Positions 33,960 to 35,645 of a stretch of DNA of 64,000 nucleotides are shown here, piece by piece. A model generated the notes under the pieces. The model did not search any database, had not been told where the DNA came from, and was given only the letters and a program-made list of their open reading frames with translations. Origin of the DNA: Asaia sp. W19 (GTDB lineage Bacteria; Pseudomonadota; Alphaproteobacteria; Acetobacterales; Acetobacteraceae); NCBI RefSeq assembly GCF_003994335.1, contig NZ_PNQZ01000059.1, positions 62,001 to 126,000 on the forward strand, read 5' to 3'. Position numbers and translations under genes: made by a program. The first letter of the stretch is position 1. Each line of letters opens with the position of its first letter.

Positions 33960-34024
33960 CGATTTACAACTTTATGTGTCAACCGCCGTTCATCGCTCTC
34001 CTCTTCTCGTGAAAGACAGCGAAT

Positions 34025-34735
34025 ATGACCCTGACGGTTCTCTGGCTGACGGCCCTGATCATGTTTGCCGGTGGCACGGCCCTGCTGCTCCTGGGCAAAA
34101 GGCGCACGGAAACCGAAGGGGTGATGAGCCTCGCCCATGGCATCGTGCCCATCATTGCGGGATGCCTCTACGTGGCCATGGCAACCGGTCAGGGTGCTGT
34201 TCTCCTACCCACCGATGCCACTCTCGCTGGCGCCGCCAGCACGACCCGGATCTTCTGGTTTGGCCGCTATATCGACTGGGTGTTCACGACGCCGCTTCTG
34301 CTCGTCGGTCTCGGTTTCCTCGGCATGTTTCGCGGGCGCAAGCGTGCCGACCTTCTGCTGGGCGCTGTTGCGGCGGATGTGATCATGATCATCACGGCCT
34401 TCGCCTTCAGCGCGTCTGAAAACGTGATTGATCGCTGGATCTGGTTTGTCCTGTCCTGCGTCGCCTTTCTGGGCGTCTATTACGTCATCTGGGTGTCGCA
34501 ACTGCAGGCCAATCGGCTCGAACGCCCGGAAGTGCAGAGCGCTTATCTGCGCAGCGCCGCCATCTTGTCGGTGCTCTGGATGGTCTACCCGATCATTCTC
34601 GCCCTCTCTCCGGACGGGCTCGGCATCGTGCCGGACTCCGCCAGCGTGCTGATCATCGCAATCACCGATGTCCTCGCCAAGGTGGGGTTTGGCTTCCTGA
34701 GTCTCAGCGATGATCGCAAGCTGACCACGATCTGA
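34025..34735 (+). CDS. Microbial (bacteriorhodopsin-like) rhodopsin with D-T-G motif
   Basis: This is a 236-residue seven-helix protein. Helix G has the retinal Schiff-base lysine K219 and counterion D215 (AITDVLAKVGFGF). Helix C reads RYIDWVFTTPLLLVG: R81 and D84 match bacteriorhodopsin R82 and proton acceptor D85, and T88 matches T89. G95 replaces the donor D96, giving D-T-G. Helix D keeps D118 (as D115) and helix F has W185-Y188-P189. The GIVP turn before helix G is kept, but the release-group glutamate E204 is Ser. H38 on helix B aligns with T46. It is most likely an outward light-driven proton pump. A retinal-forming Blh gene follows 16 bases later, so the pair is an operon. Confidence 0.94.
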   Translation: MTLTVLWLTALIMFAGGTALLLLGKRRTETEGVMSLAHGIVPIIAGCLYVAMATGQGAVLLPTDATLAGAASTTRIFWFGRYIDWVFTTPLLLVGLGFLGMFRGRKRADLLLGAVAADVIMIITAFAFSASENVIDRWIWFVLSCVAFLGVYYVIWVSQLQANRLERPEVQSAYLRSAAILSVLWMVYPIILALSPDGLGIVPDSASVLIIAITDVLAKVGFGFLSLSDDRKLTTI

Positions 34736-34751
34736 AGGCGCAAGGCCCGGT

Positions 34752-35645
34752 ATGGCACAGTTGACCACTATCGGGCCGCGCAACAGGTTCAATCTGCTTT
34801 ACTGGAGCTTGGCCGCGCTTTCCTGCGGTACCGCACTCTGGTTGGGCAACACGATCATGGCGTTGGCCGTGATCGTCCTCTTTGGTCTGCCGCATGGGGC
34901 GCTTGACGGCGAAATGGCACGGCAGAAACTGCGTCCGTCCTTCGGGCCGCTCTGGTTTCCCGTCTTTGCCCTGCCCTATCTGCTGCTGGTGCTGCTCGTA
35001 TTGCTCTCATGGCGGCTCTTTCCAGTCGTCACGCTCAACCTCTTTCTTGCGCTCTCGCTGTGGCATTTCGGCACGGAGACGCGAGAAGGCAGCAATGCTC
35101 TGCCCGATCTTCTCGTGCTCGGCGGCGCCCCCCTGATCCTGCCCAGCGTTTTCCACCCAGACGCTACCGCTCTGTTATTGAGCGCCATGGCCCCCCCGTC
35201 ACGGCTGGACATGCCACCGGCATGGCTTGTCTGGCTGTTTCCGGTCTGGAGTCTCGTCGCATGCGCCTGGCTGGGGGCATCTCCTGCTCAAGAGCGGTTC
35301 CGGAGGGTCTTCGCGCTGATTGGATTGCTTGCCCTGTTTGCTGCACTTCCGCCGCTTCAGGCTTTCATGATCTATTTCGTCTTCCAGCACGCTCCGGCCC
35401 ATGTTGCATCGCTGATCAGGGACCCGACCTGGCCACGGCTTGTCTCGCAGGCATCAGCCCTGCACTATGCCCTGCCTTTGACGATCGCAACGCTTGCCAT
35501 CGGGGCAGCGCTTTATCCTCTCTATACAGGGATGATCTCCGAGCGCCTGCTGGCGCTTACCTTCCAGCTCCTGGCTGCGCTCACTCTGCCCCATATGCTG
35601 TTTGCCCTCGTGCTGGAAAGCGAGAGAGCCGCCCTCTCCAGATGA
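34752..35645 (+). CDS. blh: Brp/Blh-family beta-carotene 15,15'-dioxygenase
   Basis: This is a 297-residue integral membrane enzyme that cleaves beta-carotene into two retinals, supplying the rhodopsin. About eight hydrophobic segments are seen. The iron-binding histidines expected in the family appear as GLPHGALDG (H48), LWHFGTE (H105), FQHAPAH (H213, H217), ALHYA (H238) and LPHML (H281). An AAGG site precedes ATG 34752. It forms a two-gene operon with the rhodopsin. No crtE, crtB, crtI or crtY is in the window, so beta-carotene must be made by genes elsewhere or taken up. Confidence 0.92.
   Translation: MAQLTTIGPRNRFNLLYWSLAALSCGTALWLGNTIMALAVIVLFGLPHGALDGEMARQKLRPSFGPLWFPVFALPYLLLVLLVLLSWRLFPVVTLNLFLALSLWHFGTETREGSNALPDLLVLGGAPLILPSVFHPDATALLLSAMAPPSRLDMPPAWLVWLFPVWSLVACAWLGASPAQERFRRVFALIGLLALFAALPPLQAFMIYFVFQHAPAHVASLIRDPTWPRLVSQASALHYALPLTIATLAIGAALYPLYTGMISERLLALTFQLLAALTLPHMLFALVLESERAALSR

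Follow-up and report, generated by a model that had tools for sequence, protein, structure and literature searches.

A rhodopsin–Blh gene pair kept throughout Asaia without a recognised route to beta-carotene

A rhodopsin gene next to a gene for Blh, an enzyme whose substrate is beta-carotene, is usually taken as a self-sufficient light-energy cassette. In Asaia, such a pair was described by Kawai 2015 as the rhodopsin/beta-carotene monooxygenase operon of A. bogorensis NBRC 16594; a light-driven ion pump with retinal supply was proposed, and the operon was called unique among the six Acetobacteraceae genomes compared (PMC4596401). The pair analysed here lies in a window of 64,000 nucleotides from Asaia sp. 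W19 (contig NZ_PNQZ01000059.1, positions 62,001 to 126,000). It is real and consists of the same two genes in the same genus, and the presence of the pair in A. bogorensis was already known. The passage of Kawai 2015 on the operon covers neither motif nor clade and includes no survey of the genus and no carotenoid pathway; the literature searched, as far as its accessible text goes, yielded no functional study of a rhodopsin from Asaia or an acetic acid bacterium. Rhodoluna lacicola and Aurantimicrobium minutum also keep a rhodopsin though the known retinal route is incomplete, but they lack blh, whereas Asaia has blh and lacks the preceding steps (PMC7734400). We find that the step before Blh is missing from the recognised enzyme families across Asaia and the other examined Acetobacteraceae whose rhodopsins group on the side of the Methylobacterium populi rhodopsin MpR (MpR-side).

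34025..34735, forward strand: rhodopsin gene, 236 aa, with motif D84-T88-G95 and chromophore lysine K219 (PF01036 145.1 bits, motif table, seven-helix model)
34736..34751, forward strand: gap between rhodopsin and Blh, 16 bases; operon probable
34752..35645, forward strand: Blh gene, beta-carotene 15,15'-dioxygenase family, 297 aa (PF15461 139.2 bits, TIGR03753 182.7 bits)

The rhodopsin matches Bac_rhodopsin in Pfam (E 2.9e-42, cut-off 24.6 bits), and a scan of it against NCBIfam matched no model. Blh matches the Pfam family BCD, beta-carotene 15,15'-dioxygenase (E 2.6e-40, cut-off 28 bits), and the NCBIfam Brp/Blh family (cut-off 95.25 bits). The original prediction, made from the letters of the window, had described a seven-helix rhodopsin with K219, D215, R81 and D84, followed 16 bases later by Blh. 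The Pfam match, the alignment columns and an AlphaFold2 model bear out the former, and the reading-frame coordinates together with two family models above their cut-offs bear out the latter. The supposed acetic acid bacterium is Asaia: the rhodopsin is 98.7% identical to that of A. krungthepensis and 95.8% identical to that of A. bogorensis GD-01. Although the source assembly is broken into 228 contigs and shows 8.08% contamination, this contig belongs to the host, because the genes flanking the pair in the window are 95.7–99.7% identical to A. krungthepensis. In the window and in 8/8 named Asaia/Swaminathania loci, the pair has the same neighbours, which goes beyond chance: on one side a gene that we take to be parC, on the other two that we take to be recO and tsf.

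All nine Asaia genomes carry the rhodopsin, one apiece. The original prediction had proposed to survey the pair across Acetobacteraceae; in a family-wide draw, 30/397 genomes, from 15/102 genera, have a rhodopsin. A class-wide protein search for relatives matched 20/384 other genomes, all at no more than 31% identity and none an MpR-side member.

No recognised beta-carotene route was found in any of the nine Asaia genomes by profile searches for the lycopene cyclase, CrtB and CrtE families. The lycopene cyclase profile PF05834 gives formal matches in all nine, but it does so in 10 of 14 control genomes as well, E. coli among them. None of the Asaia matches is full length: they score at most 33.6 bits and reach no further than position 158 of 380. 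The top match of each genome, the only one scanned for family, is a halogenase-like flavoprotein in four genomes, a fragment without family call in one (L075, which looks like part of the same flavoprotein), a sulfide-quinone-reductase-like protein in three and an NAD_binding_9 protein in one. The heterodimeric cyclase type (PF18916, CrtYcd) and RPE65-type oxygenases are each found in 0/9 Asaia genomes.

The preceding steps are likewise missing. PF00494 finds two genes per Asaia genome; the third match in G286 comes from a gene broken in two. In G000 the two genes prove to be HpnD (314.4 bits against a cut-off of 278.6) and HpnC (254.5 bits, cut-off 250.45), next to HpnE and squalene-hopene cyclase; beyond this hopanoid pair, no phytoene synthase (CrtB) was found in Asaia. 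PF00348 finds two genes in 7/9 genomes, with a near-identical third match in G000 and broken pieces in G327. In the single-contig genome G149, one is a farnesyl diphosphate (FPP) synthase (332.7 bits against a cut-off of 275) and the other a long-chain type that stays under its own cut-off; the FPP synthase scores 286 on the CrtE model, with a cut-off of 460, and no CrtE was found in Asaia. In the literature searched, no statement on this precursor gap in Asaia was found in the text available.

The flavoprotein, of about 540 aa, is present in Asaia and Swaminathania (L212:8481-10067 in G000, L074, L077, L082 and L150) and weakly matches Lycopene_cycl. It scores 31–41 bits in the full-length Asaia copies L074, L077, L079 and L082 and 43.4 bits in L150 (G008), and is the top PF05834 match in five Asaia genomes, counting the L075 fragment, and in G008. 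Trp_halogenase outscores the cyclase in bits in three of the four full-length Asaia copies, and in G000 no carotenoid genes lie around it, as judged by eye from its neighbours.

The rhodopsin-bearing Acetobacteraceae outside Asaia comprise 21 genomes. The nine Asaia genomes were counted apart from this comparison. A lycopene cyclase covering nearly the whole profile (at least 156 bits) is present in seven of the 21 (G360, G260, G026, G284, G105, G018 and G017). Specifically, it occurs in 6/6 genomes with a DTE or mirror (G360) rhodopsin plus Blh, with G260 and G105 typed from partial sequences and the G105 lysine beyond the fetched stretch, vs 0/12 genomes with only an MpR-side rhodopsin (G008, G049, G071, G086, G108, G128, G132, G163, G181, G206, G251 and G358). 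G017 was left out of this count, as it has a DTE type with adjacent cyclase as well as an MpR-side rhodopsin, and two cyclases. By Fisher tests that ignore kinship, the contrast gives p 5.4e-5 by genome, p 3.3e-4 by genus with Asaia as one (0/8 vs 6/6, genus g18 being among the 8 although its G017 was left out) and p 0.0014 in genomes at least 95% complete (0/9 vs 4/4). Blh lies beside the rhodopsin in 9 of the 12 MpR-side-only genomes (in G181 over two frames); it was not found there in G128, G163 and G206, which are 67–85% complete.

Two further genomes, G084 and G148, were left out of the contrast, which becomes 0/12 vs 6/8 if they are counted. In their rhodopsin-like proteins (L028, L029), asparagine replaces the Schiff-base lysine (LADIVNEL, LADLVNEL); no Blh lies in the 19–20 kb retrieved, and neither genome gave a full-length match to lycopene cyclase.

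Several MpR-side-only genomes, unlike Asaia, have extra SQS_PSY genes. Full-length lycopene cyclase was rejected in G358, G086, G049 and G108, whose best weak matches are BchP geranylgeranyl reductases (L201, L200, L203 and L207, respectively; TIGR02023 481–508 bits). Because of the extra SQS_PSY genes and BchP, the missing step in these relatives is the cyclase and not the whole C40 route. The gene content of these four genomes suggests bacteriochlorophyll and rhodopsin phototrophy within one cell. In G086, a single frame (L200:9210-11681) begins CrtI-like and continues phytoene-synthase-like, as read by eye, with the SQS_PSY match in its second half.

Asaia has carotenoid genes of another kind. 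In G000, genes for two CrtI-family proteins (499 and 388.8 bits against a cut-off of 238.1) adjoin those for an aldehyde dehydrogenase, a glycosyltransferase, an acyltransferase and a DUF2141 protein. All nine Asaia genomes have the CrtI-family pair, which is broken up in G307 and G327. Such a gene set is described for squalene-based C30 carotenoids, one of which is made by Methylobacterium extorquens AM1 and M. populi BJ001 (PMC10448405). Together with HpnCDE, the Asaia cluster resembles a squalene-based C30 carotenoid cluster in its gene families. M. populi is the source of MpR and a C30 carotenoid maker; therefore, its rhodopsin faces the same precursor puzzle.

The placement of the rhodopsin was addressed by phylogeny, as the original prediction had suggested. 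In a tree of 64 of the 89 rhodopsin rows (duplicates, incomplete sequences and some of the proteorhodopsin outgroup were taken out), the Asaia/Swaminathania sequences (support 100/100) fall inside a 98/98 clade with two Methylobacterium sequences and 13 other Acetobacteraceae sequences, the latter with motif D-T-S, -T or -A. Three mirror proteorhodopsins (100/100) fall outside it. A 39-row tree without the distant outgroup retains the Asaia-Methylobacterium clade at 89/90 and disfavours a constraint uniting Asaia with the mirror group (approximately unbiased test, p-AU 0.0155). Both runs warned that long branches meet, and MpR itself is absent from both trees; the two Methylobacterium clade members carry the published E-E-x-D MpR pattern.

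The MpR-like clade is reported to have 60 members, most with carboxylates E32, E33 and D35 (a tendency) and without S121/S199 (PMC10154332). The Asaia protein resembles them in its D-T-G/S/T/A motif, the histidine at the T46 site, leucine at the W189 site, alanine or serine at the G122 site and the Blh neighbour. Unlike them, it keeps only E31 of the three carboxylates (G32 and M34 are non-acidic), and its S129 and S207 are the mirror-type serines at the S121/S199 sites that MpR-like proteins reportedly lack. Because the protein shows only part of the published MpR signature, we call it MpR-side from its sequence and do not file it as an MpR-like member. In its residues, it matches the histidine-bearing DTG/DTS proton pumps (group of Harris 2015), defined by D-T-G/S plus a histidine at the T46 site (definition as given in PMC10154332).

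With mirror proteorhodopsins (SpaR, 8anq; Pseudomonas putida, 7w74), the Asaia protein shares D-T-G/S, a histidine (H38, corresponding to SpaR H37) and serines at the S121/S199 sites, and these two are its nearest solved sequences and among its best folds. Membership was attractive, since mirror pumps work at acid pH, which would suit an acetic acid bacterium. It was rejected: the protein has V33 and M34 instead of H32/H33 and L192 where mirror proteins have phenylalanine, and the tree placement and p-AU value point the same way.

A place among sensory rhodopsins with a transducer partner had been named as one outcome that would speak against a pump. No transducer family is common to the 15 non-Asaia MpR-side loci, and the sensory alternative was rejected. 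Beyond rhodopsin and Blh these loci have no common gene family; the widest other one occurs in five and is an antisense ORF. On one Methylobacterium plasmid, a chemotaxis receptor gene lies 1.3 kb upstream of the rhodopsin; it is not shared.

The AlphaFold2 model of the rhodopsin has seven helices, with a mean predicted local distance difference test (pLDDT) score of 85.5 and a single weak loop at 68–71. The top Foldseek folds are bacteriorhodopsin 4hyx, the P. putida DTG rhodopsin 7w74 and SpaR 8anq, at 30–32% identity. R81, D84, T88, G95, D215 and K219 fall in conserved rhodopsin alignment columns, whose bacteriorhodopsin counterparts we take to be R82, D85, T89, D96, D212 and K216, respectively; the pocket sites W189 and G122 are likewise named in what we take to be bacteriorhodopsin numbering.

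34136..34138, forward strand: H38 codon (bacteriorhodopsin T46 site), proposed proton donor; alignment column, aligns to SpaR H37
34274..34276, forward strand: D84 codon, Schiff-base proton acceptor site; alignment
34307..34309, forward strand: G95 codon, replaces the carboxylate donor; alignment, serine in Swaminathania
34397..34399, forward strand: A125 codon (bacteriorhodopsin G122 site, chromophore pocket); alignment
34598..34600, forward strand: L192 codon (bacteriorhodopsin W189 site, chromophore pocket); alignment
34679..34681, forward strand: K219 codon, Schiff-base lysine; alignment

The D-T-G motif of the original prediction, with G95 at the donor place, agrees with the alignment. 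Its description of a protein lacking the carboxylate donor holds for G95 but overlooked H38, the hallmark of the histidine-bearing DTG/DTS group. The H38 column is histidine in 27/27 MpR-side and mirror rows and in 0/35 others (serine in 12/12 actinobacterial DTG rows, threonine in 8/8 DTD rows). This histidine is the proposed donor in the DTG/DTS pumps studied, D-T-x with a histidine occurs in proven proton pumps, and in SpaR, where H37 is the suggested internal donor, pumping functions below pH 6.5 (PMC10154332).

Two chromophore-pocket columns set the MpR-side rows apart. The W189 site is leucine in 24/24 MpR-side rows vs tryptophan, phenylalanine or tyrosine in the 38 remaining rows, and the G122 site is alanine or serine in 24/24 vs glycine in 38/38. 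As the rows are related, these two columns are a clade mark in the alignment and not 24 independent events.

Blh carries H48, H105, H213 and H281, invariant in 32/32 Blh sequences. With its four invariant histidines and its TIGR03753 score it resembles Blh-type dioxygenases, but it forms its own sub-lineage with D-G-E after HGAL, in a host without a detected beta-carotene route. Near H48, MpR-side Blh has G53 and E54 in 18/19 sequences; neither residue is among those listed at these sites for the 13 others. The claim that Blh forms retinal thus stands as to family and histidines, but it assumed beta-carotene, to which no recognised route was found in Asaia.

Median ratios of nonsynonymous to synonymous rates (dN/dS, NG86) are 0.062 in the rhodopsin (36 pairs from 9 sequences) and 0.271 in Blh (8 sequences, with 21 of 28 pairs usable), with 0.105 for the recO-like gene (36 pairs) and 0.056 and 0.03 for the parC-like and tsf-like genes, respectively (15 pairs each, 6 sequences); the ratios are rough, with many dS near saturation. 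Genes in split frames were left out (A. platycodi for Blh, three species for parC-like and tsf-like). By these sequence ratios, the rhodopsin is constrained as tightly as the parC-like gene, and Blh drifts yet keeps its four histidines. Because purifying selection is strong (median dN/dS 0.06), the rhodopsin is probably in use.

Blh diverges much faster than its partner: it is 60.6% identical to the A. bogorensis Blh, vs 95.8% for the rhodopsin, and 48–63% identical in 6/7 intact orthologues, where the rhodopsin is 86–96% identical. In A. platycodi, Blh lies over two frames. Decay was rejected as its cause, probably in favour of an assembly error, because such assemblies also split essential-looking genes (parC-like or tsf-like in the platycodi, prunellae and astilbis assemblies).

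A short conserved element lies upstream of the pair.

33963..33995, forward strand: conserved element, TTTACAACTTTATGTGTCA-3 or 4 nt-CGTTCA, its end some 30 bases upstream of the rhodopsin start

The block is conserved in the window and in 8/8 named Asaia/Swaminathania loci, and the remainder of the gap is unconserved. Its 17-mer occurs once in the window, with 0.01 copies expected. Judging from this conservation, it could be a promoter or a regulator site. At the carotenoid cluster (L122, L123, L083, L084, L087 and L088), only a chance-level match with nine mismatches was found, in a scan that used 3-nt spacing and gave six mismatches for the window's own site.

The genes, residues, placement, conservation, selection and absence of the known cyclase, CrtB and CrtE families were observed; from them we infer the ion, its direction, the uptake and the benefit. 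Our leading explanation, which we hold at about even confidence, is that the rhodopsin is a light-driven outward ion pump, most likely for protons, run on acquired beta-carotene or retinal. Light would isomerise the chromophore on K219, and the Schiff-base proton would pass to D84 and then to the outside. With G95 at the donor place, H38 would aid re-protonation of the Schiff base in lieu of a carboxylate, by analogy with SpaR. The adjacent Blh would cleave beta-carotene to retinal, and the beta-carotene, or retinal itself, would be taken up from plant sources (flowers, fruit, nectar) or from insect hosts; flowers and fruits are a reported habitat of Asaia (PMC4596401). Whenever light is available together with carotene from the diet, the pump would add to the proton-motive force. 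An outside supply of the chromophore is preferred because it needs no unknown enzyme.

Several points weigh against this explanation. A profile search may miss an unrelated cyclase. No uptake gene for carotene or retinal was found, none having been sought. Beta-carotene, with zeaxanthin and others, was reported in A. bogorensis ISD1 grown in minimal medium with sucrose (PMC6151773), and if that report is right, the cells make beta-carotene themselves. The ISD1 assignments are, in our judgement, doubtful because the same list includes neoxanthin, synechoxanthin and myxoxanthophyll (PMC6151773). The published ISD1 list, as far as seen, mismatches the gene content observed in Asaia. As to the ion, an MpR-side member assayed elsewhere is claimed to pump Li+/Na+ (PMC10154332), and the MpR pattern is only partly kept (E31), with S129/S207 as in mirror proteorhodopsins.

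Asaia might instead make beta-carotene or retinal through an enzyme outside the known profiles, for example a flavoprotein cyclase unlike the CrtY, CrtYcd and CruA types. We consider this possible but clearly less probable than an outside supply. The genus-wide retention of Blh and rhodopsin under purifying selection would fit it, as would the ISD1 report of beta-carotene without plant material (PMC6151773), the weak Lycopene_cycl match of the halogenase-like flavoprotein and the precedent of Aurantimicrobium minutum, which makes retinal without known genes (PMC7734400). However, CrtB and CrtE are absent too, and three steps rather than one would need novel enzymes. The match of the flavoprotein extends over no more than 158 of the 380 cyclase positions; most full-length Asaia copies score better as Trp_halogenase, and in G000 the gene does not lie among carotenoid genes, as judged by eye. 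A broader and equally tentative idea is that MpR-side pairs generally run without CrtY-made beta-carotene, either because beta-carotene or retinal is made by a route yet to be discovered or because Blh cuts a chromophore from a C30 or other acyclic carotenoid, to be held in a reshaped pocket (leucine at the W189 site, alanine or serine at the G122 site). The specific proposal that the chromophore is not retinal, with Blh cutting a C30 carotenoid to a shorter acyclic apocarotenal, seems improbable to us. In its favour are the C30-type cluster, the two pocket sites (24/24 vs 0/38), the G53 and E54 residues by H48 in MpR-side Blh and the C30 carotenoid of M. populi itself (PMC10448405). Nevertheless, the pocket changes may only tune colour, and several MpR-side genomes have crtB-like and bacteriochlorophyll genes and are probably C40 acyclic carotenoid makers. 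We know of no C30 cleavage by Blh. MpR is reported as a functional pump in a heterologous host, where retinal was presumably supplied (Cho 2021, via PMC10154332).

The original prediction of a light-driven proton pump remains likely but is not assured: the single assayed MpR-side member, MpR of M. populi, is claimed to pump Li+ and Na+ (Cho 2021, as cited in PMC10154332). Pumping of Na+ or Li+ by the Asaia protein is a minority possibility in our estimate, and we judge protons considerably likelier than sodium. The clade with the two E-E-x-D Methylobacterium sequences (98/98 in 64 rows, 89/90 in 39 rows) and the disfavoured single clade with the mirror proton pumps (p-AU 0.0155) point towards Na+ or Li+, but of the three MpR carboxylates the protein retains just one, and it has both serines of the mirror type. 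To our knowledge, NDQ-type Na+ pumps share neither the D-T-x motif nor the histidine. The two together are common to proven proton pumps (PMC10154332). That the protein is a relic, or does not pump at all, is very improbable: Blh drifts fast and is in two frames in A. platycodi, but the dN/dS values of 0.062 and 0.271 show constraint on both genes, and the same assemblies split parC-like or tsf-like genes, which makes assembly errors the probable source of the frameshifts.

The precursor gap and the contrast to relatives are the part of this analysis that deserves follow-up. If unknown enzymes are at work, a new cyclase or a new chromophore would be there to be found. If the carotene is dietary, the use of light by a plant- and insect-associated bacterium would hinge on the carotenoids of its hosts.

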